DNA from: Bythopirellula sp.
GTDB lineage: Bacteria; Planctomycetota; Planctomycetia; Pirellulales; Lacipirellulaceae
DNA length: 64,000 nucleotides
Direction: 5' to 3'
NCBI GenBank assembly: GCA_028285205.1
Contig: JANQQA010000036.1
Span: forward strand, 1 to 64,000
The notes below the pieces were generated by a model that had not been told where the DNA came from, did not search any database, and saw nothing but the letters and a program-made list of their open reading frames with translations. Positions within the stretch are counted from its first letter, which is position 1. Each line of letters starts with the position of its first letter. Positions 1 through 20,634 of this stretch are shown here, piece after piece. The translations under genes were made by a program, and so were the position numbers.

Positions 1-1935
1 TCCCAATCGGACGTCGGCAATCGGTCCGACTTGATTCTTGCTAAAAGTCCGCGCCCGCAGACGACCACCGTCGGCCAAAGTAAGTGGCTGCTCGTAAAGC
101 GTCGATTGCTCCGTGGGCTCCGATCCGTCGAGCGTGTATCGAATCGTGGCGTCGGGATGCTCGTTGCGAATTTTCTTCCTGCCGCCATGTCGCTTCCAAT
201 TGAAGTCTTCACCTGTGGGTTTCGGGGCGAGCACGACCGCATGCGCGTCGTTACGCGCGATTTGGACGGATGGCGGTGGTTGCTTGTAGTAATGAGCCGA
301 GACTTCCGCGATCGTCGGTTGAAGTCGAGATGCAAGAACTCGGATCCGTAACCGATCCGTCGTCACGGTCGGGAACCGCAGGAATTTCTTGTAGCCGATG
401 GTCGTGCCGCGCGCGACTTCTTGCCATTGCCCGTCGAACCATGCGTCCAACGCGTGTCCCTCAACGCGTTGTCCGACCGAGGCGATCGCCTCCTGCACGA
501 CGATACGATTCAAGGTTGTTGGCTCGGGCAACAGAATGAGAACTGCATCATCATCCCCATCAGGCTGCCAGTAGGTTTGGAGATCACCATCACGAAGGCT
601 GGTTACTTCGCCCCCATTTTCCGACGTTGTCTTGGCTCCGGCTGCCAGATCGGATCCATAGGTTTCACGAATACGTTTGCCGACTTCTCGCAAGCAGGCC
701 TCGTCGCGTTCGGCGAAAAGGCCTTGGTTACTCGGTGGAATGTTTAGCAGAAATCCGGCATTGCCCCCGACGGTTCGCTCGTAGATATCGAACACGTCGT
801 CGGGAGTGCGTACTGATTGCTCATGCTCGTTGCGCCAGAACCAGCCGGCGCGTATCGAAGTGTCTACCTCGCTGATGAGGTACTGGAGCTGCTTACTCTC
901 GTAACGCTTGCCGTAGACTTCATAGCTTTCGCTCACCAGAGCTGTACGAGACCCGGGCGAAGCGTCTGGACGATCGACGCCGCTTAGCTTTCTGCTTTGC
1001 ACCGGCAGCACACTCCATTCCGATTCGCGTGTGTAACCGCCTTCGTTGCCACACCAGCGAATGTCTGGGCCGCCAAAAATTGCCGCTTCTGGTGCGAGTT
1101 CGCGAATCATTTGGAACCACTGATCCTTGACGTACTTCTGCCCGCCTTTGCGTTTCGGGTGAGCGCCGTCGAACCATACTTCATGAATCGGACCGTACTC
1201 TGTCAGCAACTCGTAGAGTTGGTTCATGAAGTATCGGTTGTAGTCGTCGACGCTGAGCGTGAACGTTGGTGCGTCGCTGGGAATGTCGCTGCGCACTCGT
1301 GCCGGTTGATCATGGAACGAAGCGGGGTCGGTGGGAATGGTCGACTCTTGGTAGGGACTTTCGTTGCCGTACAGCCCCTGAGCACTTTCGATTTGATAGA
1401 GATCCGCCGGAGAGAGATAGACGCCAAGCTTTAGACCAAACTTCTTGCAGGAGTCCGACAGCTCACGCAAGACGTCGCCTTTGCCATCGCGCCAGGGAGT
1501 GGCATGGACGGAGAAAGTGCTGTTGTATCGAGTTTGCCAGAGGCAGAATCCGTCGTGATGCTTAGCGGTAATGATGACCTTCTTCATCCCCACGTCTTTC
1601 ATGATTCGGCACCACTGGTCCGTATCCAGTGTCGACCCTGGATTGAATAGACGCGGATCTTCCTTGCCGTTGCCCCATTCGACACCGGTAAACGTGTTCG
1701 GCCCGAAATGAATGAACCCGGTGAACTCGTCCTGATGGTACAGGAGCTGCGGCCGGTTCGGCACAACACTGGCCGCCAACGTCATGATCTCTTCTGGACT
1801 CGCATCGCGAGGAATTTCGACGTTATGAACATACGGCGGGTCACTGGCGTGGCTCGCGTTCGGTCGAATCTCAACACATAGCAGCAAGCAGGCAATCGCT
1901 GGGAGATGCAGGGCGACATCAAGTACTTTAGGCAT
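1..1935 (-). CDS. GH29 alpha-L-fucosidase, secreted, 3' end cut by window edge
   Basis: At least 645 codons are open from the ATG at 1935 to the left edge. A signal-like hydrophobic stretch (LPAIACLLLCV) precedes a GH29 catalytic domain of about residues 45-400. The family motif ITAKHHDGFCLW lies near residue 120, and the motif EVWFDG carries the expected nucleophile Asp at residue 256. Beyond about residue 430 there is a discoidin-like (F5/8 C) module, then a chitobiase-type C-terminal module with the motif IRYTLDGSEPT. Family knowledge: GH29 enzymes release alpha-L-fucose by a retaining mechanism. It is the last visible gene of a minus-strand operon, 169 bases after the isomerase gene. The real C-terminus is outside the window, so total length is unknown. 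Some GH29 relatives act on other 6-deoxy or galacto-configured sugars, so the substrate is inferred. Confidence 0.88.
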   Translation of the reverse strand, partial: MPKVLDVALHLPAIACLLLCVEIRPNASHASDPPYVHNVEIPRDASPEEIMTLAASVVPNRPQLLYHQDEFTGFIHFGPNTFTGVEWGNGKEDPRLFNPGSTLDTDQWCRIMKDVGMKKVIITAKHHDGFCLWQTRYNSTFSVHATPWRDGKGDVLRELSDSCKKFGLKLGVYLSPADLYQIESAQGLYGNESPYQESTIPTDPASFHDQPARVRSDIPSDAPTFTLSVDDYNRYFMNQLYELLTEYGPIHEVWFDGAHPKRKGGQKYVKDQWFQMIRELAPEAAIFGGPDIRWCGNEGGYTRESEWSVLPVQSRKLSGVDRPDASPGSRTALVSESYEVYGKRYESKQLQYLISEVDTSIRAGWFWRNEHEQSVRTPDDVFDIYERTVGGNAGFLLNIPPSNQGLFAERDEACLREVGKRIRETYGSDLAAGAKTTSENGGEVTSLRDGDLQTYWQPDGDDDAVLILLPEPTTLNRIVVQEAIASVGQRVEGHALDAWFDGQWQEVARGTTIGYKKFLRFPTVTTDRLRIRVLASRLQPTIAEVSAHYYKQPPPSVQIARNDAHAVVLAPKPTGEDFNWKRHGGRKKIRNEHPDATIRYTLDGSEPTEQSTLYEQPLTLADGGRLRARTFSKNQVGPIADVRLG

Positions 1936-2104
1936 GTTCTTACTCGGCAGTAGATTTGGCCGGGGACCTAGCATTGCTACAACGCGGCAGACTGTTCACA
2001 GAATGTTGCCACGACGACCTTGAATTCCAATGTCGTCAGCCCAATCGCCCGGTACGAACGGGCGACTGGAACCGCGAGGTTGGCTTTAGCTTTGCAAAGA
2101 AATG

Positions 2105-3805
2105 CTAGACGGACTGACCAACGGCATTCTCGTTGGAAGCGAATTCAGCCCAGTGCTTGTCGTCTTTGCGTGTTCCACACAGGTGTACGTGGATTCCTAA
2201 CTCTTGCGCCATTGCAGCTCGTACCAATAGCGCTTCGTCGGCTGCGTCCGCATCGCCACCGTAGGCAACCTGGATATGGTTCGCCTGATGGCGTGCCATC
2301 ATCTGGTCGCGGCTGACGCCATAGGTTACCGCATGCATGATCGGCCACTGCGGAGTGGTGGAATTCCAACGGCGCTCGGTTTCTTCACGAGGCAGCTCGA
2401 TGGCCTTTCCTCGACCCATGTCCAAATGCAAAGCATCACTCTTGATGTAGATGCGGGACCAAACGATTTCTCCCGGCTTGGCAATCCCTCGGAGCGTTGA
2501 ACCACCGAGCGGAAAGTACATCGGCGGCTGTCGAAAGCCCTCGCTGCTTGCCCAACCACCTTCATGGTGTTCGACAGGAGCGGAGCCGGAGATCTCAAAC
2601 ACCCAAACGTAGTCGTCGACGGTGTTGGAATGATCATCGTCGCCCCAACGCAGGTCGTGCAAAGTCGTTTCTACGGGAAGCTCTAACGCGGCATGCACCT
2701 TCTGGATCAGCAGTCCGTCAAGCCCAGCACATTCGTCAACTTCATTGAAGTGCAGTACTGGTTGACCGGGGAAGAGTTCGCGCGATCCATCGCGGCTGAA
2801 GACCGGCGGGCGTTCTGTGCTGTTAAGCATCCCTTCGACCAAGTCGCTGGCAGGCAAGAGGTCCTTGAGCCCCTGTTGGTACTGAATGCCGATAAGATCG
2901 CACCCAAAGTCGTCCGCCAAGCGTACAGCAGCGATGTAAGTTTGACATTGCTTCTGAATCTGGTCATCGGTTAGCTCGGACTGCTCGTCCGTGCCCGTAT
3001 GAAACGTCATACCACGTTGCTCGAGCCACTGTCGCGCCGCATCTGCTTCTTCGACGGAACAGCACGTGGCTTCGTAGTAGAGCGCCGACTGACTGAGCCG
3101 CTCCTTAAACACACCGGTTCGATTCAGCAGATGATCAGGAATGATCGCATTGAACATTCCCATGCACCCTTCGTCGAATACGCCCATGATGGCCTTGTTG
3201 CGGACCAGGCTCTCGGCGAGTTCTCCGCCCAGATTCTTGGCAGTCTCGGGGACACGGTCGCTCGCGAGTGCTTGGACATGGGTCGTGTCGTGCTCCAGGC
3301 TACCCGACGAGAGCCAATCAGAAAGCCCTGTCGTGAAGAAGGAATCAGTGAAGTCTTCACTCCAGAGTGTCGAGTAATTGACTCCCGCCTTGGTCAACGA
3401 GCCGTTGAGATTCAACATCCCTACTAGACCGGGCCACTGGCCCGACCAATTCGCGACGGTCAGAATTGGCCCTTCGTGAGTGGTTAAGCCGGCTAGCACA
3501 TGGTGTGAGTACTGCCAAACTGCCTCTGCCACGATAAGGTGGGCATCGGAAGGGATGTTCTTGAAGACTTCGATGCCTTCGCGCTGACTGGCGATGAACC
3601 CGTGCCCGGTCGTTTCATCAAATGCATGGGCGCGATGGCACTCGTAACCCAGTTCTTCCAGAACAATTCGCAATGATGCTTCCATGTCATGCTGTGCTTG
3701 CCAGCACTGCTGGTTGGCTGACAGTCGTAGGTCGCCACTGGCGATCAAATAGACAGTCTTGCCCTTACCAGCGGGTGCGCCATTTCCATAGAGTGACTCA
3801 CGCAT
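2105..3805 (-). CDS. L-fucose/D-arabinose isomerase-like protein
   Basis: This 566-residue protein without a signal peptide resembles the L-fucose isomerase superfamily (COG2407 type). The C-terminal third carries [41 protein letters not shown] and TPQWPIMHA, followed by [12 protein letters not shown], which parallels the substrate-site region of fucose isomerases. Members of that superfamily interconvert L-fucose/L-fuculose and also D-arabinose/D-ribulose. The ATG at 3805 is preceded by AGGAG eight bases upstream; this site lies inside the end of the kinase gene, which overlaps by 8 bp, so translation is probably coupled. Cytoplasmic location and a place directly after a ribulokinase-type gene point to a ketopentose-producing step. 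Sequence similarity to characterised FucI is distant, so the exact sugar is inferred. Confidence 0.72.
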
Positions 3806-5438
3806 ACGTATTTCTCCTAGAACTTAGATGGTCTGCCAGCTGCCTGTATTTGGCGTAGGCAGCCTGGTAGTCGTTTGAATGCTCCACGGCGGGTTCGACA
3901 ATTTCTGCCCGTCGTGCGGGGTCGTCGTCTCGCGGTGCCGCCATCGTTTCAACTGCTTGCTCGGTCGTGGAAAAGCCACTGCGCTCTTCTCCTGCCGCGA
4001 TAGCGCCGAGTATCGCGGCGCCTAAAGCGGGCCCTTGTTTACTGGGGTGAACGAGAATCGGTCTGCCTAGAACGTCAGCGTAAATCTGAACTAGGGCCGG
4101 ATTGTGGTGAGGTAGGCCTCCAGTTGCCACTAAACTCTTTACGGAAATGCCAGACTCTTCCAAACAATCAACAATCCAACGTACACCAAATGCCGATGCT
4201 TCGAGCAAAGCACGGTAAAGGTGTGCCGGTCGGTGGTGCATTTTTAGTCCGCTGAAGCCCCCACTGAGTTCGCCATCCATTAGTGGCGTTCTACAGCCGT
4301 TCATCCAGTCAACGCAGGTCACGCCGTCGGCACCTGGCGGTATGTTCGCCGCCTGCTCAGCTAGTTCCGAGTGGTCTTTATGCCCAAGGAGACTGCGCAG
4401 CCAATCGAAGGCGTCGCCGACGGCTGCCTGTCCGGTTTCGTAACCATAGTAGCCAGGCAGAATGCCGTCCTTCACGATGCCCGCGACCCCTGATACCATG
4501 CTCGCGTTTGGCGCGTTTAGCATGTGACAACTACTTGTGCCCATCACCATCACGAGCGTTCCAGCAGAAGCCGCACCAACGCCCGGAACACCAGCGTGTG
4601 CGTCGATAATGGCGGCGCTAACGGGTGTGCCAACGTGCAGGCCGAGACGATCCGCCATGCCTGCACAGAGTCCGCCCGCCGCTTGCCCGGGCGCGACCAG
4701 CTTACCGGGTAGCTTGTTGACTACGGTCTCTGCTAGGCGTGGATGAACCGCGTTGAGATAGTCTGTGGAAGGATAGCCGTCCTCGGCTGACCACATTGCT
4801 TTGTAGCCCGCTTGGCAGGTCGAGCGGGGCAACTCGCCGGCGGCGCCACTTACTAGCTGCCAGACGAACCAATCTCCCGCTTCCAACCAGATCTCTGTCG
4901 CGTCGTACACGCCCGGCGCTTGTTCCAGCACCTCAAGTACTTTCGGAAAGAACCATTCCAGGCCAATCACGCCACCATAACGTTTAAGGAAATCCTCGTT
5001 TCGCTCTTTCGCAACCGCTGTCAGGCGATCGGCTTGCTGTTGGGCTCCATGGTGTTTCCAGAGCTTCGGCCAAGCATGAGGCTCACGTCGAAAGTCCGCT
5101 ACATTACAGAGCGGTGTGCCGTCTGCAGTAGTCGGCAGCATCGTACAGCTGGTGAAGTCAACACCCACGCCGATGACCGATTCCGGTTGCACGTTAGCGG
5201 AACGCATCGCTTCTTGGACAGCGCTAGCGGCACTGGAAATCCAATCATTGGGATCTTGCAAAGCGAATAATGCAGGTAACGGTTCTCCATCAGGAAGCGC
5301 ATTGAGAACCTGTCCTCTCGCATACTTGCTAACTGCTGACGCAATCTCTATTCCATTCAAATCAACAAGCAGTGCACGGACCGATTCGGTGCCAAAGTCG
5401 AGGCCTAACGCAAGCTTATTCGTAGTAACCAATACCAT
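3798..5438 (-). CDS. araB: AraB-type ribulokinase (FGGY family carbohydrate kinase)
   Basis: This 546-residue FGGY kinase begins with the ATP-binding motif [14 protein letters not shown] (residues 13-26) and has the AraB-like stretches [23 protein letters not shown] (121-130), [12 protein letters not shown] and [17 protein letters not shown]. Asp279 in IIDAHAG is the expected catalytic base and MGTSSCHML the family's second phosphate-contacting region. These are features of ribulokinases, which phosphorylate C5 of 2-ketopentoses, rather than of fuculokinases, which phosphorylate C1. Known AraB enzymes accept both L- and D-ribulose. The gene overlaps the isomerase gene and follows the propeller dehydrogenase by 34 bases. 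With an isomerase able to make D-ribulose, the pair would yield D-ribulose-5-phosphate. No AraA or AraD homologue is present in the window, which weakens an L-arabinose role. Confidence 0.85.
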
Positions 5439-5472
5439 TATCGTTCTCTAGAAATTCACCTTTCGCCATATG

Positions 5473-7092
5473 CTACACCGTACACTCTGATCGTGAAGTG
5501 CGACGATGTCGAATCGAGCATAAATATGCTTGAGTTAGTATGCCAGTAAGCATACATGTAGAGCTTGGCTCAGGAACTTGAAGCAATTGCGAAAAAGCGC
5601 CTGCGCCTTGCGCATTGTCGAACGCCGTCTTGAACAATTGGAAATCCAACACATCAACGACTAGGTTCCCATCAAAGTCACCTTGGGTAAAGGTCTCGTC
5701 TGGCGTAGATCCAGGGAACTCCATTCGATATGTCGGTTTGAACAATTGCCAATCTGCCGAAGTGACTTCACCGTCACCGTCCATGTCACCAAGAACAGAT
5801 GGTGGATCCCCAAACGACACACGATGAATGCGCCCACCAGCAACGTGTTGGCCGACCAGCAGATTCCCCAGAGGGTCAGTCAGCACGTCAATCGGATTAG
5901 CAAATCCGGTCGCGATGGTTGTCACATCACCTGTCACACCATCTACAGCCAGCAAGTCCTTTCCAGCAGCAAATCGGACAATGAACGCATCGCCGGCAAA
6001 TTCGGGATTCACATCACTAAAGTCGAGGCCGTTGGCTGACGCATGATTGCCAAGGGTTGCAACTGGGGCTTCAAAAGACTGGAAGAATCCGGCGTTTATC
6101 GCATCGGCATTGGTCTTCCAATCGCCTGAGATTTCATTGCCTTTTGGGAACTGATGATCATCTTGAAAGTCGCTCCGGTGGATTTCATCAGGTGCCAATG
6201 GGTTCTCGTTCTGATTCATCGAGACCCATAACTGTCCTTCGTCGTCGAATGCCAAACCGTAGTTGTTGCGAAAACCGGTCGAGTAGACGGTCAGTTTTCC
6301 CTGGTCCGTCGATGTGAACGGTCTTGTATCAGACTCGGGGTTGGTGATGTCAAACCTTGCCAAGTTGGTGGTCGTCGTATCGGAACTCAACTGCGTAAGA
6401 TCGCGAATCCAGTTTACAGAACCCGTGTACGAATACTCGCCATCACTCGGACTCGGGGGGCCTGACAGCTCGCTGATATCTCCACCCGTTCGAGTTCGGC
6501 TACCTATTCCCACGTACAACGTGTCGTCGCGAATCTGCATCTGGTTAACCTGATGCAAATCGGTAACGCCAAGGTTGGACACAATGGTTTGATTCACCTC
6601 GCCAGCCTCACCCCAAGAACCGTCCTGATCGTCATCGGTCAGGCGAATAATGTCCTGCGGCCAATCGATTGGTTCCGGTGCAAATGTGAACGGCACAGCC
6701 GGGGAGATATACATCACATGACCCAATGTCGGATCATCATGAAAAGCAATGCCCAACGAGCCATTGCGACGGCCCTCACTAGGCTCATCGGGTCGCGACC
6801 AAATTGTGACTTCGTTGCTGACGTTGCCCAATGGGTCATAGTCGTATCGCTTGATGCCATTGGACAACGTCGCAACATAGAGTTTGCCGTCCGGCCCGAA
6901 TGTCATCTGCGTAATATTGCCAATACTCGAACCAATCTGTTCGATGCCGGAAAAATTCTCCTGGACGATTGGATCAGTTGAAAGCTGCTGAGCCTGCAAC
7001 TGGGTACACATGACCAGAATCGCCAGAACGCCCGCATACCTTATGCCACGAGAACAAACACTACGGTTCCGAATTACTTTCAATGCTTTCAC
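5473..7092 (-). CDS. Secreted glucose/sorbosone dehydrogenase-like beta-propeller with dockerin and PEP-CTERM tail
   Basis: The GTG at 7092 is chosen because GGGAGG lies eight bases upstream; the nearby ATG is out of frame. The 539-residue product has a signal peptide ending near LQAQ (about residue 35), then a six-bladed-propeller-like domain (about 50-430) with ITQMTFGPDGKLYVAT, GIAFHDDP and STGFRNNYGLAFDDEGQLW, as in PQQ-dependent sugar dehydrogenases of the sorbosone family. Dockerin-like loops follow (LGDMDGDGEVTSADWQLFK and GDFDGNLVVDVLDFQLFK), then a VPEPSS sorting motif. The C-terminal helix after PEP is short and contains cysteines, so the sorting signal is atypical. It sits between GH172 and the kinase with 31 and 34 base gaps, so it is almost certainly co-transcribed. 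Oxidation of a released sugar or a purely binding role are both possible. Confidence 0.75.
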   Translation of the reverse strand: MKALKVIRNRSVCSRGIRYAGVLAILVMCTQLQAQQLSTDPIVQENFSGIEQIGSSIGNITQMTFGPDGKLYVATLSNGIKRYDYDPLGNVSNEVTIWSRPDEPSEGRRNGSLGIAFHDDPTLGHVMYISPAVPFTFAPEPIDWPQDIIRLTDDDQDGSWGEAGEVNQTIVSNLGVTDLHQVNQMQIRDDTLYVGIGSRTRTGGDISELSGPPSPSDGEYSYTGSVNWIRDLTQLSSDTTTTNLARFDITNPESDTRPFTSTDQGKLTVYSTGFRNNYGLAFDDEGQLWVSMNQNENPLAPDEIHRSDFQDDHQFPKGNEISGDWKTNADAINAGFFQSFEAPVATLGNHASANGLDFSDVNPEFAGDAFIVRFAAGKDLLAVDGVTGDVTTIATGFANPIDVLTDPLGNLLVGQHVAGGRIHRVSFGDPPSVLGDMDGDGEVTSADWQLFKPTYRMEFPGSTPDETFTQGDFDGNLVVDVLDFQLFKTAFDNAQGAGAFSQLLQVPEPSSTCMLTGILTQAYLCSIRHRRTSRSECTV

Positions 7093-9965: not shown

Positions 9966-10748
9966 CTACTTCCGACGCCGGAAGGAGAGTGAGCTCAGCA
10001 TTGCCAAGCTCAACAGCGCTGCGGATGCCGGTTCAGGGATGAAGGTACCTTCCACGGTGAATTCGATCGCCGAAATAAATCCGTTAGCATCCGTCGCGGC
10101 ATTCCCAGCGGCATTCTCGATCAGCCGAATACCGACGATAGCGTCCTGCTCAGCAAAATCGAAAGTCGCGACGGCCGAGACCGTAGCATTGGGAAATCCT
10201 GTACCTCGAACGTTACCCGTTAGTGCAGCAACATAATCATTGGTGGTAGCCACGTCCGTCCAGGTCGAGCCGTCGGTGGTCACCTGAAGCGTCGGTGCGG
10301 TGATATCGCCGGCCGCTAGCGGAGCGCCACCTGCAACCGTGTCAGTTGGTCCCCACCAGCCGCCATCGTTGGCCAGGAAGTGCTGAATCGTGACCTGGGT
10401 CACGTCATCGACTGGAATGCCCCATTCGACGCCGACGTAGTCATACTCCTTGCCTACTTCGGGAATTGCACCCGCCCAGGTGTCCGTGCCGTTACCCAAT
10501 GCAGCTGTACTGCCGTCGCCGTTGATGACGACGGCATCGCCAGGCGTACCGGAGATACCATCGTTAATCTCAGTCGTCGCAGGACCATTGGAATGAGCAA
10601 TTGGTCCCGCCCCTGCCAGGTCATCGGCAAGGCCCATAATGGCCGTTCCGTTTGGAGCAATGTTATCAGCGTGTGTGCATTGCGCAACGGCGAACAGCGC
10701 ACAACTGGCCAGAGCCAAACCAAACAAATTCGTCTTAATCAACCTCAT
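9966..10748 (-). CDS. Discoidin-like PEP-CTERM protein
   Basis: The ATG at 10748 has AGGAG nine bases upstream. The 260-residue product has a signal peptide (about 1-27), one ectodomain of about 205 residues and a C-terminal IPEPASAALLSLAML helix ending SFRRRK, a textbook PEP-CTERM signal. The ectodomain pattern (EINDGIS, YVGVEWGIPVDDVTQVTIQHF, LQVTTDGSTWTDV) is that of a discoidin/F5-8 type C-like fold, which usually binds carbohydrate; that fold call is by pattern only. It is strongly similar to the first and second ectodomains of the large joined protein at 16594-20634, so the three copies are recent duplicates. No catalytic motif is visible. An exosortase, absent from the window, would be expected to sort it to the cell surface. 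Confidence 0.8.
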   Translation of the reverse strand: MRLIKTNLFGLALASCALFAVAQCTHADNIAPNGTAIMGLADDLAGAGPIAHSNGPATTEINDGISGTPGDAVVINGDGSTAALGNGTDTWAGAIPEVGKEYDYVGVEWGIPVDDVTQVTIQHFLANDGGWWGPTDTVAGGAPLAAGDITAPTLQVTTDGSTWTDVATTNDYVAALTGNVRGTGFPNATVSAVATFDFAEQDAIVGIRLIENAAGNAATDANGFISAIEFTVEGTFIPEPASAALLSLAMLSSLSFRRRK

Positions 10749-10991: not shown

Positions 10992-13900
10992 TTATTGGAT
11001 ATCCGAAATAAGTAGTTCGTCGATAGAAGTCGGCCTGTCGTCAGTTTCCCGATCGGCGCCAAACGCCTCTAAATCACCATTACGAAGCAATCTATTGATC
11101 CTTGTTCTTGCGCTTTGCTCTGCCTGGTCGGCGCGGGAGAGTTTACCTTCTTCCGCCACATTCCGAACCTTGCGAACAACGATGTCGCCCGTCGCGCCTT
11201 CCTCAACAGGCTGCTTGCTGGTACTTCCATCAGGCCAGCGAACCGTGATCATCTCGACGGGACTGACTTCGGATTCCGCAAGCAGTATTGCTGCCCCCGA
11301 CTGCGAGAGGTAACCGTCACCGGCATGGACCTCTCGTGTGACATTCTCTCCGCCGGTCAGTTGGATGCGAACACGAGCACCGACTCCGGTCGGGTTGCCA
11401 TCGTCACCTTGAAGCAGCACCTTTCTCAATCGCTTAGCTGCCTTCTGCGCCTGGAATACGCGGCTTCTGCCATTGTTCACGCCCACCATCACTCCCAAAC
11501 GCCCATCCCCGACAAGGTCGGCGACGATTAGACTCTTGGCATCCCCTGGAACCAGCAACCCGCTTTGACGCGACGGAACTGCGGCAAGCTCTCCGCGTCC
11601 ATCACCTAACATGAGTTGACTAACGCCACCGTCCATTCTGCCGGTTTCTCGCTGAGGTGTGAAGAAATTATGGACCACATATGCATCCGCATTTCCATCA
11701 CCATTGAAATCAGCGATCGCAGAACCAAACGCTGGCGCAACCTGAGCGATTCGTGGTAGCGGCTGAAACTGAAACCGCGCTTGCCCATCATTTATCAGCA
11801 TGCCATGGCGTAGTTCGCTTGCGTCGACTTGGTAGGCGTCGACGAGACTCTTTGGCGTGTAGATCTCATTCAATAAAGAAGATGCGAACTCGTGGTAGGT
11901 CGGCAGCTTCGAGCTAATAAATGGCATCGCGTTCTGCGAGCAACTTTTCCCGCGCACAGGCAGAAAACCGTCTGCGGTGCATTTGGCTTCAATGATTCGA
12001 GACTTGCCCGTTTCGTCGAACTCGCCATAGAACAGCATCGCTGGCTTCTTCGTGGTAGGGTGATACTTCGTGTTCAGTCCGAAGTTGGTTACGAGGTAAT
12101 CGATGTCACCGTCTTTGTCGATGTCACCAGCGGAGATCCCGTTCCACCAACCTTTGCGGCTTTCCAATCCAGAATCCTCCGTATGGTCACGGAGCACACC
12201 TTGTTCGTTCAGAAAAACTCCGACCGGCCCCCACTCGGTCGTCACTAGAAGGTCTATCCAACCGTCGTCATTGGCGTCCGACCAAACGGCTCCGGTTACC
12301 ATACCAACCTGCTTCAGGCCGAGAGCTAACTTATCGGTAACTTCAGTAAATTTAGGGCCTTCCTGGCCACTTTCGTTTAGCAGCAGCGTACTCTGTGGCA
12401 CCTGAGGATAGCTACCTGGGACGACTCGACCTCCTACGAACAAATCTAGATCGCCGTCACGGTCGAAATCTGCTGCGACCACACAACTACCGCTGGACTT
12501 TAGCTGCGGCAGGGCATTCACTGCTTTCTCAAACTCGCCCGTTCCGCTGTTGATGTAGAGACGATCTTGGAGCAGCTCCGAGTCTGGTCCAGATTCGACG
12601 CCGCCGCTTACGACATAGAGATCAAGATCTCCGTCACCATCAGCATCGAACAGCAACGCGCCCATGTCTTCGCACGGAGAATCTGGCTCGAAGGCGGGCG
12701 TTGAGTTTTTCCGGAATTGAATCGTGTCTGACTGATTCCGTATGGTGAATAACCGGCCTGCGGATCCAGCTGCCCCACCCATGTACAATTCGTCGACTCC
12801 GTCGCCGTCGACATCTCCGAAAGCAAGACCTGGACCAAGTTGTGATAACTTGTTGGGAAGTAACGGCTGCGAAGCAAAATCGTCGAACGGCCTCTCATTA
12901 TGTCGCGGCGAATTCCCGTCTTCGTTTGAGACGAAGTCTGTCGTTACCGCTTTCGCTGCGAATTCCGATTGGGATCCTACGCTGGGCTCAGTGACGGTGT
13001 ACACAAAGTTGGCTGCGATATCCCGTAGCGTCTGGACGCGTTGGCTTGGCCATAGGATTTTTACCTTGTCAATGACCTCAACGTCTCCCAATCCAAATTG
13101 AATGACCGGCTGATCATTTGACATAAACCCACGAGCCAACGTTAAGTAGCGTGATTGAACACCATCAGCGGTGTAAATGCGAACTAGCGCACCGATTCCT
13201 TGGGAGTTGCTCTCTGTTCCACGTAGTCGAAGAATCACGCGATTACCCACCGCAACGTCGTTTCGATAAACCGATGCGGGTTCGTCAAAGTTGTTGACGA
13301 TAAGGTCGAGGTCGCCATCTCCGTCAAAGTCTCCATAGCCCGCACCAAAGCTGACAGACTCTAGATTAAGCCCCCAGGATGCACTTCGGTCTGCAAACTC
13401 CAGATCGCCAAGATTCCGAAAAGCTAGATTTGCGTCGTCCTTTCTACTGACGTGATGACGGAGCGTGTCAAATCCCCCGCCATGTTCCGCTCGAATATCG
13501 CTGTTGAGCCAATCGCCTGTCATGCCGTTGGAGATGAACAAATCGCACCAGCCGTCGCAGTCCAGGTCAGCGAATTTCACTGCCCAAGTCCAGTCAGAAT
13601 TGGAAAGGCCTGCCATGTGGGCCACTTCCAGGAAACGATCGCTTCCTGTGTTGACGTACACGGCATTTCGCATGTACTGCGGTGGGTCGGAGCTATCGAG
13701 GAACCAAGCACTGTCCGACATATCACCCATGCCAAGCTTTTGCTTGTAATGCGAGGTTCCCGACATGTCCGATGCCATAAAATCCAGTAAACCATCGTTG
13801 TTGACGTCTGCCACGTCGGTTCCCATGGAGAACCAGGGAATATGAGGCAGGACATCTCTCGCAACATCGTCGAACGTGCCATCTCCGTTATTCCGATAGA

Positions 13901-14972
13901 ATCGGTCGGCCCCGTAGAAGTCGTTGGCGACGTATAAATCGGCGTGCCCGTCGTGGTTGTAGTCCATCCAAGTTGCCGACAGTGTCATGCCGTAGTCATC
14001 GATACCGGCTTCATCAGACACGTCGACAAATTTCCCACTTCCGTCATTCTGCATGAGCATGGCACGTTGTCCCGCCTGCACAATACGCACCTTACCCCGT
14101 TCGGGAAAAAAAATGACCTCCCAGTACTCGCGCAGGTGGTCTGGCATCACTGGACCGAGAACGGTCTTCTTCAACTGCCGAAAGGCATCATCGATTGAGG
14201 GCGCCCATGCATAAGAGCCATTTTCATCCGGCGGGGTGAATCGATTTCGAACTAAGAATACATCTAAGTCGCCATCGTTGTCGTAGTCAGAAAACGATGC
14301 CATTACCGACGCTCCGTGGATAGCTAAGCCCCGTGATTCTGCTTCTTCGCGGAATGTACCGTTCTGCTGATTGACAAACAGACGGTTGGGGCAATCGTAT
14401 CCACATAAGTAGAGATCAAGCGCGCCGTCGTTATTGATGTCAACGAACGAACAGCCCGTCCCCCAGCTCTTGTCTAGTGAAAGCCCTGCAACTTCGGTAA
14501 CGTCCTCAAACTTGAACTCACCTAGGTTCCGGTACAGACGCCCTCCGCCGAATGGCCGTGAGAGGTAGACATCTGGAAGTCCATCGCCGTCATAATCGCC
14601 GACGGCAACCCCACCTCCTGCGAAGGAACTTTCCAGCAAACGTTCGTACGCCTCAGGTGGTGTCCATTTATGAACAAATGTGACACCAGTCTCATCGGCG
14701 TCGAGCCGTGTAAACATACGCTTCTCGTCACTCGGGAAGGACCCGCCAAAAGGTCCTTGCCTTTGGACAGACGATGCGAGTGGAGCACGAGTTGCGAGAA
14801 GTGGAGAATCTGCGTCGCCCGATACCTTGATGTCTAGCTCATCCACAGCGTCGACATTTGCAGGTGCTTGAGCGATCTGTGCGCCGACGGGTGTGGTGGA
14901 ACGATTACCGCACCCAATAGCGCCAATGCATGACACAATCAGAACCAGGACTAGTTGATTGGGCACACTCAT
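10992..14972 (-). CDS. CRTAC1-family FG-GAP/VCBS lipoprotein with two ASPIC/UnbV modules
   Basis: This 1326-residue protein starts with a lipoprotein signal peptide whose lipobox reads AIGC at residues 18-21. Many FG-GAP/VCBS repeats follow, recognisable from DYDGDGLPDVYLSRPFGGG, DINNDGALDLYL, DFDGDGDLDLIVNNFD and DFDRDGDLDLFVGGR, which build calcium-binding propellers. There are two ASPIC/UnbV-type modules, one near residues 575-660 (LRLRGTESNSQGIGALVRI) and one near 1195-1260 (GVGARVRIQLTGG), so the protein is a tandem of two propeller-plus-UnbV units. The gene follows the small lipoprotein gene by 22 bases. Such proteins are frequent in planctomycetes beside DUF1559 genes; their function is unknown, with roles in surface binding or enzyme maturation proposed. 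No clear Shine-Dalgarno sequence precedes the ATG, which agrees with coupling to the gene before it. Confidence 0.85.
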   Translation of the reverse strand: MSVPNQLVLVLIVSCIGAIGCGNRSTTPVGAQIAQAPANVDAVDELDIKVSGDADSPLLATRAPLASSVQRQGPFGGSFPSDEKRMFTRLDADETGVTFVHKWTPPEAYERLLESSFAGGGVAVGDYDGDGLPDVYLSRPFGGGRLYRNLGEFKFEDVTEVAGLSLDKSWGTGCSFVDINNDGALDLYLCGYDCPNRLFVNQQNGTFREEAESRGLAIHGASVMASFSDYDNDGDLDVFLVRNRFTPPDENGSYAWAPSIDDAFRQLKKTVLGPVMPDHLREYWEVIFFPERGKVRIVQAGQRAMLMQNDGSGKFVDVSDEAGIDDYGMTLSATWMDYNHDGHADLYVANDFYGADRFYRNNGDGTFDDVARDVLPHIPWFSMGTDVADVNNDGLLDFMASDMSGTSHYKQKLGMGDMSDSAWFLDSSDPPQYMRNAVYVNTGSDRFLEVAHMAGLSNSDWTWAVKFADLDCDGWCDLFISNGMTGDWLNSDIRAEHGGGFDTLRHHVSRKDDANLAFRNLGDLEFADRSASWGLNLESVSFGAGYGDFDGDGDLDLIVNNFDEPASVYRNDVAVGNRVILRLRGTESNSQGIGALVRIYTADGVQSRYLTLARGFMSNDQPVIQFGLGDVEVIDKVKILWPSQRVQTLRDIAANFVYTVTEPSVGSQSEFAAKAVTTDFVSNEDGNSPRHNERPFDDFASQPLLPNKLSQLGPGLAFGDVDGDGVDELYMGGAAGSAGRLFTIRNQSDTIQFRKNSTPAFEPDSPCEDMGALLFDADGDGDLDLYVVSGGVESGPDSELLQDRLYINSGTGEFEKAVNALPQLKSSGSCVVAADFDRDGDLDLFVGGRVVPGSYPQVPQSTLLLNESGQEGPKFTEVTDKLALGLKQVGMVTGAVWSDANDDGWIDLLVTTEWGPVGVFLNEQGVLRDHTEDSGLESRKGWWNGISAGDIDKDGDIDYLVTNFGLNTKYHPTTKKPAMLFYGEFDETGKSRIIEAKCTADGFLPVRGKSCSQNAMPFISSKLPTYHEFASSLLNEIYTPKSLVDAYQVDASELRHGMLINDGQARFQFQPLPRIAQVAPAFGSAIADFNGDGNADAYVVHNFFTPQRETGRMDGGVSQLMLGDGRGELAAVPSRQSGLLVPGDAKSLIVADLVGDGRLGVMVGVNNGRSRVFQAQKAAKRLRKVLLQGDDGNPTGVGARVRIQLTGGENVTREVHAGDGYLSQSGAAILLAESEVSPVEMITVRWPDGSTSKQPVEEGATGDIVVRKVRNVAEEGKLSRADQAEQSARTRINRLLRNGDLEAFGADRETDDRPTSIDELLISDIQ

Positions 14973-16593: not shown

Positions 16594-19500
16594 CTATTGA
16601 AATCTCCGACGTGTGAACTGCAAGAAGGCAACTCCGCCAAAGGCAATGAGGCTCATCGTATTTGGCTCGGGAACTGCTTCCAAAGCTTGAAACGGGAACC
16701 CCCCTTGAACGCCAGCCGCTAGGAGGCCGTTGTGCAGAATGAACACGTCACCAAGGTCGACAGTACCGTCGAAGTTGAGGTCGCCGTTCTGCCGAGAAGT
16801 CCAGTCACCGACCTGTGCACCGCCAACAACGTTCTGGCTTTTCCAACCCGGCAAAAACGCAGTGATGTCGGCTCCATTAACGGTGCCGTCTAGATTGACG
16901 TCGGCAGCATCTGTGACCCCCAGATTTGCCAGCTGGGCGACAATCCACTCGTTGTCTTCGGCAAGACTGAAATCGCCATAGTCCATACCCACCGCGGCAG
17001 GGTTGTTGTTGGTTTCGGTCGTACCGGAATTGTCCCCAAACACAAACAGTTTGACGTCATCCAATGTTCCCTGGAAGAAATTGTCTGTACCATCTTGATT
17101 GGCTCCGATGGTAAGTGCGGTGGCTTCGCCAAAGTAGAAACCTTGATCCACGCCGGCTGCGCTTCCGTCGAGAAATAGCGCTCCGCCCCCAGCGGCGGTC
17201 ACATTCATGACATGTACCCATTGATCATAGGCGACGCTCACCCCGGTATCCGTTTCACGCCCACCGAAGAGCAGTCCCCAGGTATCGTTCTCGGTAATGT
17301 ATATGCCATGCTGTTGAGTATCGATAACGATATCCTGGCGGACACCTTGCTTGCCAGAATTAGGTCTCACCCAAGCTTGGATTCCCCTGCCGAGCACACC
17401 ATCGTAATTCAATGGGTAATCATTGTTGGGGAAAAAATCCTGATTGTCCCAATAGTCATTCGGTGAGTTCAAGCTTATGACGGCAGCCAGGTATTCGGCG
17501 ACTCCATCGAAATCCGCACCAAGTGCACCGCTCGATGCGCCCAAGCGTGACGAAGCGTCCGCGTAAGTCGGTGTACCGAGCACTTGGATGTCCTGGGCGT
17601 CGACGAAATTAACCGTGTCCACAACCGCGCTGTCAGCCGTGAATCTTCCACCCGGGCCCGTGAAGTTGGCACCGACTTCGCCGCCGAGAACTGCGCCCTC
17701 GACAGAATCGTCACCCAATTGGTAGTCCCGATCCAGCGTCACTGCGGCGCTGGACACACTGAGCATTGAAAACAGGGCAAGCGATGCGGCCACGACGCCC
17801 AAGACTCGTGGAGCTACCTTGGAAGTGGAGTCGATTTTTTCTCGACGAAAGCCTCTGCGACGGCGACCACCGAGCGCCGCAAACGCCGCCACTGCAGCAA
17901 GTATTCCTGTGGATGGCTCAGGGACCGTGGCGATAGAAGCTGCTAGAGTTCCAGCACCATAGTTCTGCTGCCAATCGTTGAGTCCACCCGGGGTGCCATC
18001 AACACGCTGCCACGCTAGGAAGTCAGCGCCATCGACATCACCATCTCCGTCAAAGTCACCGGCCTGGCTATCAATGAAGATGACATTTCCATCGACCAAC
18101 TGCCCACCTGACCGGAACGTGAACGCCAAACTGTCTTCGTCTGCTGGACTCGATCCGTCATAAATGTCGCCAAGCGAGAAGGGACCGTTGCTGTTGTTGA
18201 TTTCAGAACTGCCGGCCAAGAAGGCTTCAGCGAGCTCATTACCATCCAAGTTCCCGAGCTTCTCCCAGCCGTCACCGACGCCAGTACCCGAAGGCAGCTG
18301 CCCTCCACCGCTGAGGCCAGTAAATCCGGTGTTGAGCACACCCTGGTCACTCGTGATGCTGTAAAAGTCGATGTCGAAGGGGGTACCGGTATCGTTGTCG
18401 ATAACGGCGGTCCCCGAGTTTCGATTTACCTCCAGTGTCAACGTGGGAACGAAACCTTCAACTTCAAACTCAATCGTGGAAATGAAGCCGTTGCCATCGC
18501 CGCCCGCGTTGCCGGCACCGTTGCCGATCAAACGGATACCCAAGATATTATCCTGGGGTGCGAAATCAAACGTGGCGAAATCTGAAACCACCGCGTCAGG
18601 GAAGCCTGTACCACGGACGTTTCCGGTCAGCGACGTGACATAATCGTTGGTGGTTGCAACATCCGTCCACGCCGTTCCATCAACAGTGACCTGCAGGGTC
18701 GGAGCCAACAGGTCACCCGCTGTCAGTGGTTGACCGGCATCTACGGTAGTAGTTGGACCCCACCAGCCGCCGTCATTTGCGAGGAAATGCTGAACTCTCA
18801 CCTGATCGACTCCCGTGACCGGGGAGGCCCATTCGATACCGACCCAGTCAAACTCCTTGGCAACCTCCGCAATGCCGCCGGCCCATGTGTCAATTCCATT
18901 GCCTGCGGCCGCGGATTCTCCCGTACCGTTAATGACTACTGCTTCCGCTGGGGTACCCGAAATGCCGTCATTCACCTCTGTCAGCGCAACACCATTCACG
19001 TGATCGATGGCGCCGGCTCCTGCGATATCATCTGCAATACCCATGATGGCAGTACCACTGGGGGCAATGTTTGCTGCCATTGCACTCGAACTAGCAAATA
19101 AAATTGGCAGGCAAGCCAACGCACAGACGTTCGCTCTCGTAGTTAGTTTCACTGATCGACTCCCCGTTGTTGTTCCTTCGCTGTTGCTGTCGCAAGAGCT
19201 CTTTTGAATTCGCGAACGGCCCGCCACGGTGGCCAAGCCAATGACAAGTAGGGCCAATCCAGAGGGCTCGGGTACGGGCTGCCCCGCAACCATTGCCGCA
19301 AACGCCGCAGCCCCCTGATTGGCGATAAACGCATCTTTGAACAATCCGTAGTCAACAACATCGACAACTCCGTTGCCGTCCATATCTCCCATTTGATAAC
19401 TCTGAGCTGGCGTGAGAGCAGCCAAGTCGGCGTTGTAGTTATCACGCACCGTCGGCCAATCGGCCGCATCAACAGCACCACTGCGATCAAAATCGCCGAC

Positions 19501-20634
19501 GATTAGAGGATTCGAAGACGAGACTCCGTCGTAGCTGATTTGCACGTTCGATCGAGTTCCGTCGTCGAACAAGAGTTCCATCTGCAAATCGTCACCAAAC
19601 GGATTAGGCGTCCAAATCTGACCTAGAGACATCGACAAGCCGGCTCCGAACTGAGCTCCGTCACCGGAGGGCACATTGAGTTCAGCTTCGCCAATGCTGG
19701 TTGCGGAGCCTGGCAGCTCAGTCCAGTTGTCGTTCGTATCCACCTGCACGCCGCCTGTGGGACCCGAGTTGGCATCGTAGTTATCTGCGATCGAAGTCCA
19801 ACCAGTAGGATCCAATGCACCGACACTTGCTGCTGAGGTAATGTCGTAGCCAATGATATTGCCGGGGATACCGGTTGGCGAGTTCAAGACTAATTCGCCT
19901 GTTACCGTATCCACGTCCAGCGTCAAGGTTGTAGCACCTTCCACTGTGAACTCGATTGCTGAGATGAATCCATTTGCATCCGTTGCGGCATTACCGGCGG
20001 CATTTTCGATCAATCGAATACCGAGCAGTCCGTCCTGCTCAGCAAAATCGAAGGTAGCGACGCCCGAGACAGTACCGTTGGGAAACCCGGTGCCGCGAAC
20101 GTTGCCTGTAAGCGCCGCAACGTAGTCGTTGGTGGTCGGCACGTCCGTCCAAATCGAACCGTCAGTGGTCACTTGCAGCGTCGGTGCGGTGATGTCGCCG
20201 GCCGCCAGCGCTACGCCACTCTCAACTGTAGTCACCGGTCCCCACCAGCCACCGTCGTTGGCGAGAAAGTGCTGGACTGTAACTTGGGTGGCGTCATTGA
20301 CCGGAGTGCCCCATTCGATGCCGACGAAATCGAATTCTTTGCCCACTTCAGGAATGGCACCGGCCCAGGTGTCCGTTCCGTTGCCGGTTGCACCTGACGT
20401 ACCATCGCCGTTGATCACAACTGCACCGCCAGGTGCCCCCGAGATGCCATCGTTAATTTCCGTTGTAGCCGGTCCGTTGGAGTGAAGAATTGATCCCGCC
20501 CCAGTAATGTCATCGGCAAGTCCCATTATGGCTGTACCGCTCGGGGCGACGTTCGCTGCCATCGCAGTCGCACTTAGAAGGCTAATTGACGCACAAGCTA
20601 GTACAGCGCTAGCGGCTGCTCTTCCAATATTCAT
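16594..20634 (-). CDS. Three PEP-CTERM proteins joined in one reading frame (possible polyprotein)
   Basis: From the ATG at 20634 (GGAGAG five bases upstream) one frame of 1346 residues runs without a stop. Cassette 1: signal peptide 1-26, discoidin-like domain 27-234, two dockerin-like loops 379-436, PEP at 455-457, helix and basic tail to about 478. Cassette 2: second signal peptide about 495-520, second discoidin-like domain 521-729, one dockerin loop about 859-874, PEP 905-907, helix, RRRR at 924-927. Cassette 3: third signal peptide about 938-964, LamG-like domain about 1034-1199 (IQAWVRP, DDVKLFVFG), dockerin pair 1244-1304, PEP 1322-1324, helix, final RRR. Each sorting helix ends in basic residues and is followed by a new signal peptide, so alternating membrane insertion and processing into three products is topologically possible. 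Loss of stop codons by mutation or small sequence errors at the joints is the main alternative. Confidence 0.8.
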   Translation of the reverse strand: MNIGRAAASAVLACASISLLSATAMAANVAPSGTAIMGLADDITGAGSILHSNGPATTEINDGISGAPGGAVVINGDGTSGATGNGTDTWAGAIPEVGKEFDFVGIEWGTPVNDATQVTVQHFLANDGGWWGPVTTVESGVALAAGDITAPTLQVTTDGSIWTDVPTTNDYVAALTGNVRGTGFPNGTVSGVATFDFAEQDGLLGIRLIENAAGNAATDANGFISAIEFTVEGATTLTLDVDTVTGELVLNSPTGIPGNIIGYDITSAASVGALDPTGWTSIADNYDANSGPTGGVQVDTNDNWTELPGSATSIGEAELNVPSGDGAQFGAGLSMSLGQIWTPNPFGDDLQMELLFDDGTRSNVQISYDGVSSSNPLIVGDFDRSGAVDAADWPTVRDNYNADLAALTPAQSYQMGDMDGNGVVDVVDYGLFKDAFIANQGAAAFAAMVAGQPVPEPSGLALLVIGLATVAGRSRIQKSSCDSNSEGTTTGSRSVKLTTRANVCALACLPILFASSSAMAANIAPSGTAIMGIADDIAGAGAIDHVNGVALTEVNDGISGTPAEAVVINGTGESAAAGNGIDTWAGGIAEVAKEFDWVGIEWASPVTGVDQVRVQHFLANDGGWWGPTTTVDAGQPLTAGDLLAPTLQVTVDGTAWTDVATTNDYVTSLTGNVRGTGFPDAVVSDFATFDFAPQDNILGIRLIGNGAGNAGGDGNGFISTIEFEVEGFVPTLTLEVNRNSGTAVIDNDTGTPFDIDFYSITSDQGVLNTGFTGLSGGGQLPSGTGVGDGWEKLGNLDGNELAEAFLAGSSEINNSNGPFSLGDIYDGSSPADEDSLAFTFRSGGQLVDGNVIFIDSQAGDFDGDGDVDGADFLAWQRVDGTPGGLNDWQQNYGAGTLAASIATVPEPSTGILAAVAAFAALGGRRRRGFRREKIDSTSKVAPRVLGVVAASLALFSMLSVSSAAVTLDRDYQLGDDSVEGAVLGGEVGANFTGPGGRFTADSAVVDTVNFVDAQDIQVLGTPTYADASSRLGASSGALGADFDGVAEYLAAVISLNSPNDYWDNQDFFPNNDYPLNYDGVLGRGIQAWVRPNSGKQGVRQDIVIDTQQHGIYITENDTWGLLFGGRETDTGVSVAYDQWVHVMNVTAAGGGALFLDGSAAGVDQGFYFGEATALTIGANQDGTDNFFQGTLDDVKLFVFGDNSGTTETNNNPAAVGMDYGDFSLAEDNEWIVAQLANLGVTDAADVNLDGTVNGADITAFLPGWKSQNVVGGAQVGDWTSRQNGDLNFDGTVDLGDVFILHNGLLAAGVQGGFPFQALEAVPEPNTMSLIAFGGVAFLQFTRRRFQ
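19150..19165 (-). promoter_or_regulatory. Internal Shine-Dalgarno and GTG start for the second PEP-CTERM cassette
   Basis: Exactly at the N-terminus of the second internal signal peptide lies GGGGAG (19165-19160), seven bases and then an in-frame GTG (19152-19150) that would start MKLTTRANVCAL. In the next frame a TGA overlaps this GTG (GTGA), the usual arrangement of coupled genes. So cassette 2 can probably be started independently even though the frame from cassette 1 is open. It suggests either dual expression or a recent fusion of two coupled genes. Confidence 0.55.

Follow-up and report, generated by a model that had tools for sequence, protein, structure and literature searches.

A stop-free frame of 1346 codons on the minus strand of the window (the whole stretch of 64,000 nucleotides of Bythopirellula sp. 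DNA that was analysed) is, with a probability of about 0.72 judged from sequence, a genuine membrane-threaded surface-protein polyprotein that would be cut by signal peptidase and exosortase. The frame (16594..20634, minus strand) runs from ATG at 20634 to TAG at 16594, its stop-to-stop extent reaching ~20826. The preliminary description had recognised three PEP-CTERM units in one uninterrupted frame; the frame is indeed open throughout, with PEP triplets starting at exactly the residues given there (455, 905 and 1322). Pfam models detected three PEP-CTERM stretches (PF07589) and three dockerin stretches (PF00404) in the protein, which displays the PEP motif, the hydrophobic helix and the basic cluster of PEP-CTERM signals; as for extreme C-terminal placement, two of the three signals are internal and the third alone is terminal. 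Signal peptides, assigned by sequence inspection and hydropathy, comprise one at the N-terminus and one ahead of each later module, in line with the earlier claim of internal signal peptides at both joints: core 2 spans residues ~503-514, with an AMA/AN site at residues 518-520, and core 3 spans residues ~944-958, with an SSAA/V site at residues 961-964, so that the AxA-like ends fall at 520 and 964. Basic residues terminate both PEP-CTERM helices ahead of the joints, as had also been stated.

Features of the frame and its surroundings
20554..20634, minus: ATG and N-terminal signal peptide, residues 1-27, MNIGRAAASAVLACASISLLSATAMAA (from translation)
19276..20553, minus: module 1 ectodomain, residues 28-453, with dockerin-like repeats; its domain also occurs solo in the window
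19201..19275, minus: internal PEP-CTERM signal 1, residues 454-478, VPEPSGLALLVIGLATVAGRSRIQK
19075..19200, minus: joint 1 and internal signal peptide 2, residues 479-520, ending AMA/AN
19150..19152, minus: in-frame GTG (V495) with GGGGAG 7 nt upstream, possible relict start of a formerly separate module-2 gene (from sequence)
17926..19074, minus: module 2 ectodomain, residues 521-903, 55% identity to module 1, dockerin-like end
17836..17925, minus: internal PEP-CTERM signal 2 and basic tail, residues 904-933, VPEPSTGILAAVAAFAALGGRRRRGFRREK; PEP invariant in alignment A1
17743..17835, minus: joint 2 and internal signal peptide 3, residues 934-964; linker without ATG, GTG or TTG
16675..17742, minus: module 3 ectodomain, residues 965-1320, LamG/concanavalin-like jelly roll and dockerin pair (predicted model)
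16594..16674, minus: terminal PEP-CTERM signal 3, residues 1321-1346, and stop codon
15474..16490, minus: downstream DUF1559 pseudopilin-like gene, a conserved neighbour of such genes (PF07596 and PF07963)
9966..10748, minus: solo PEP-CTERM protein corresponding to the module-1 N-terminal domain, 79% identity over residues 10-234

Distribution and history of the multi-signal frames

The preliminary description implied that the frame was unique; instead, such frames are a recurrent trait of the Lacipirellulaceae, in which the same gene order occurs unfused too. When 59 related genomes were searched with the 1346-aa protein, dozens of open frames of 1300-1500 aa were found, and most of those examined in full carry three PEP-CTERM signals at positions similar to those in the window. 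The wider search that had been recommended yielded 60 distinct frames in the family (17 with two signals, 42 with three and 1 with four) and ten further ones in the complete genome G025, one of which carries five signals. We consider it fairly likely that the family as a whole makes secreted polyproteins of this kind, in which the tail of a sorting signal is shared as the next n-region and which are cut into two to five proteins. With an HMM of joint 2 and module 3, the third module was located in 24 of 43 Lacipirellulaceae genomes; of 297 genomes sampled from the class, nine had a match, all nine from Lacipirellulaceae, and a profile search of genome contigs with a 6-row subset of the alignment matched four loci. 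Among the PEP-CTERM signals listed for G025, 32 of 149 (counted by hand) lie in the same open frame as another signal of the list, compared with 0 of the 150 best-listed signals in six genomes from other families of the order; this is a contrast among the matches listed (the best 150 outside the family), not a full census.

Some of the individual frames have features of their own. At locus L184 (G025:C1:3720000-3730000), a frame at 17-6790 on the plus strand contains five PEP-CTERM signals and two successive 262-aa units that are 97% identical; its first unit is seemingly interrupted between 1246, the end of an upstream frame with signal peptide, and 2255, where the dockerin part continues, and the gap looks like an insertion of ~1 kb. 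A 1658-aa frame with four PEP-CTERM signals is present in Aeoliella straminimaris (L147, G033:C33, 3366-8339, minus strand), and the window's own genome, G000, has three more two-signal PEP-CTERM frames, L031 (C307), L034 (C124) and L167 (C261).

Orthologues of the third module are not always separate genes, given that, among 63 copies of module 3 in the loci retrieved, 49 are fused. The PEP triplet at joint 2 is present in all 49 module-3 genes that are fused to an upstream frame and is invariant in the 21 rows of alignment A1 (21/21; mean column identity 36%); together with the recurrence of multi-signal frames, this bears out the earlier argument that two joints without stops exceed chance. 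On the module-3 tree, fused-only branches make up 26.9 of a total of 37.1 substitutions per site, and the fused state needs ~5 changes compared with 11.2 in shuffles, suggesting that the fusion is old and has long been kept, with few gains or losses. The same module order is also found as three genes (L153, L154 and L155), as 2+1 genes (L150 and L152, and probably L149 and L156, both cut by the locus edge) and as 1+2 genes (L151 and L166). Unfused units begin with their own ATG and signal peptide. The existence of these forms suggests that each unit is a self-sufficient secreted protein and that the chain amounts to an operon in one frame.

The draft state of the window genome (373 contigs) would be compatible with a sequencing or assembly artefact, or with a recent, non-functional stop loss. 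However, the same architecture recurs in dozens of frames from independent assemblies, including seven single-contig genomes (G006, G023, G025, G027, G029, G030 and G035) and a cultured isolate of the family Lacipirellulaceae, Aeoliella straminimaris ICT_H6.2 (G033, contig NZ_JAMXLR010000036.1); furthermore, the joints are under purifying selection (see below), and only ~5 state changes are required on a deep module-3 tree. Thus, an artefact is extremely improbable for the window frame, whose architecture is repeated in so many independently assembled frames, and this explanation is already refuted at the level of the family. The joints had been expected to prove open in independent data, and the relatives, among them the seven single-contig genomes, keep them stop-free.

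Anatomy, translation and evolution of the joints

The 60 distinct frames provide 104 joints, all of which have the same order, namely, PEP helix, net-basic linker and signal-peptide core. The net charge of the linker is at least +2 in 104/104 joints, its median length is 13 aa, and an AxA-like site is found past the second helix in 100/104 joints (mean of 81 and maximum of 92 in 1000 shuffles). In many joints, e.g. L079 VPEPATWLSAVVGVVGFAMRRRAVCLLGLTLACGAMLATNATAQ, the PEP-CTERM arginines directly form the n-region of the signal peptide that follows. A two-helix hairpin would have the same anatomy as the joints, and the main rival to the polyprotein reading is an uncut, multi-anchored protein, which would be read through and would retain its helix pairs as membrane hairpins, yielding one polytopic protein with three linked ectodomains. 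This alternative appears unlikely: the internal PEP triplets are invariant and the AxA sites are above chance, whereas a mere hairpin needs neither, and the same units occur as separate PEP-CTERM proteins.

Alternatively, each module could be translated separately from an internal start codon, the missing stops being incidental. Plausible starts are indeed present at some joints (GTG at V495 with GGGGAG in joint 1 of the window, and ATG in L062 and L057), and separate-gene forms exist; the Shine-Dalgarno-like GGGGAG and its possibly relict GTG count against the polyprotein reading. However, 49 of the 104 linkers contain no ATG, GTG or TTG (80 of the 104 lack ATG), and the start codons that do occur in linkers are close to the expectation from composition (30 vs. 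21 for ATG, 31 vs. 38 for GTG, 26 vs. 27 for TTG), with an SD-like 4-mer upstream of only 21 of the 87 usable ones. Moreover, without a stop codon, the upstream ribosome elongates on regardless. At the 49 joints without a start codon, the downstream modules can be made by read-through only, yet they are conserved.

In the closest pairs, the dN/dS of the joints is ~0.3 (dN = 0.34 and dS = 1.02 for L080/L081; dN = 0.35 and dS = 1.11 for L139/L092). This ratio is above that of the ectodomains and similar to that of the terminal PEP-CTERM signal, which is short and nearly saturated in dS; the faster evolution of the joint sequences relative to the ectodomains counts against the polyprotein reading. 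Judging by these rates, the joints evolve as coding sequence under purifying constraint. The dS of the joints is not clearly lower than that of the ectodomains, which argues against a hidden ribosome-entry element and, likewise, against separate translation, an explanation that we consider quite improbable. Internal initiation as a general mechanism, a candidate prompted by the GTG and GGGGAG of joint 1, is rejected on the start-codon counts and the joint dS. Read-through translation of the joints is strongly supported by these nucleotide-level data; open frames, start-less joints and a joint dN/dS <1 together point to several complete proteins per frame that are translated through, as in a polyprotein.

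Module folds and gene neighbourhood

Module 3 is predicted to consist of a LamG/concanavalin-like jelly roll followed by a dockerin pair: its model (mb79d70f47124) aligns with AbnA domain 4, an arabinan-binding region (VIA Z 18.9, 186 residues, 2.4 A), and has a Foldseek E of 7e-9. Toxin binding domains and trypanosomal sialidases also appeared among the fold matches; these have in common only the LamG-like jelly roll, with no toxicity implied. The model of module 1 is poor (pLDDT 45), and no fold is claimed for it.

Of 48 fused loci, 29 have a DUF1559 pseudopilin-like gene directly downstream, as does the window frame, compared with 3 of the 64 other PEP-CTERM frames that these loci contain (Fisher p ~5e-11, an optimistic value because the loci are related). 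Genes for glycan-acting enzymes are often located upstream of multi-signal frames, and the genes near fused loci encode BNR sialidase-like proteins, a sulfatase, phosphodiesterases, GDPD and an alpha-L-fucosidase; the window also encodes fucose-isomerase-like, FGGY kinase and DUF2961 genes. The multi-signal proteins may serve to hold or forage glycans on the cell surface. A large FG-GAP/ASPIC-UnbV protein is encoded in the window (10992..14972, minus strand) downstream of the pseudopilin gene and of one for a lipoprotein-like product, and all three apparently form one operon with the polyprotein gene. In L148, L150, L156 and L158, sulfatase-like genes with their own PEP-CTERM signal adjoin solo module-3 genes, which belong to one clade with a DRWYRMG/DRWYQMG-type start.

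Proposed processing and comparison with known systems

From the observed open frame, its conservation, the anatomy and constraint of the joints, and the presence of exosortases, we infer the following topology, cleavage and product fate. One passage of the ribosome would produce three successive sets of signal peptide, ectodomain, PEP-CTERM helix and Arg/Lys loop. Each PEP-CTERM helix would stop transfer, its basic end remaining in the cytoplasm, and this end, in many relatives, would double as the positive n-region of the following signal peptide, which would re-enter the Sec channel and export the next ectodomain. Signal peptidase I would then cut behind each AxA and exosortase at each PEP, giving three separate dockerin/lectin-like proteins in a 1:1:1 ratio and leaving short hairpins of PEP helix and signal peptide behind in the membrane. 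The order of elements at the joints (PEP helix, basic loop, signal peptide, AxA) fits the topology put forward in the preliminary description, and the conserved AxA and PEP sites suggest that three proteins may be released by cleavage, as proposed there.

The genome of the window has three exosortase genes, two of which score above the TIGR02602 cut-off and none above the cut-off of any named subtype. One exosortase (L124, G000:C342 7945-11703) lies inside a 1794-aa open frame that runs on into TPR-like sequence, and this frame directly adjoins another with a TPEP sorting signal. Exosortase is not known to act at an internal PEP site, which counts against the polyprotein reading, and its enzymology is little known. 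If correct, the polyprotein reading would offer a handle on the enzyme, with one gene expected to give a set of predictable fragments in wild-type cells and larger products once exosortase is mutated. The frame would then be the first exosortase-processed polyprotein, and a strategy otherwise associated with viruses, namely, the production and sorting of several surface proteins within a single membrane-threaded chain, would operate in bacteria; software for gene calling or for predicting surface proteins would count one protein where two to five may exist.

A literature search on PEP-CTERM or exosortase with polyprotein, and on internal or tandem PEP-CTERM signals, found no PEP-CTERM polyprotein, most subscription journals being outside its scope; as far as we can tell, the parts are known and the chaining of PEP-CTERM units is undescribed. 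PEP-CTERM is an extreme C-terminal sorting signal, and sequences at atypical internal positions have been suggested to be non-functional (Haft 2006, PMC1569441), a suggestion that likewise counts against the polyprotein reading and that functional internal signals in these frames would contradict. The window units are like those of the PEP-CTERM/exosortase sorting system (TIGR02595/PF07589, PF09721), with PEP-CTERM scored by both Pfam and NCBIfam and exosortases in the genome; however, the signals of that system are at the extreme C-terminus, whereas in the present frames two of three (up to four of five) occupy internal positions, each with a further signal peptide behind it. The tandem PEP-CTERM operons of L153, L154 and L155, from the same family, share the module order and the third module with the window but consist of three genes, with stops and their own ATG-started signal peptides. 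Chaining looks like a conserved way to make surface proteins as one chain for cutting. In Bradyrhizobium, the cytochrome b/c1 precursor FbcH is a bacterial membrane polyprotein that signal peptidase cuts at an internal signal sequence; unlike the window frame, it involves one cut, two respiratory subunits and no sorting enzyme. In flavivirus-type envelope polyproteins, several ectodomains are threaded by stop-transfer helices in alternation with internal signal peptides, and host signal peptidase cuts the chain, but these polyproteins are viral, are made in a eukaryotic host and have no exosortase or PEP motif.
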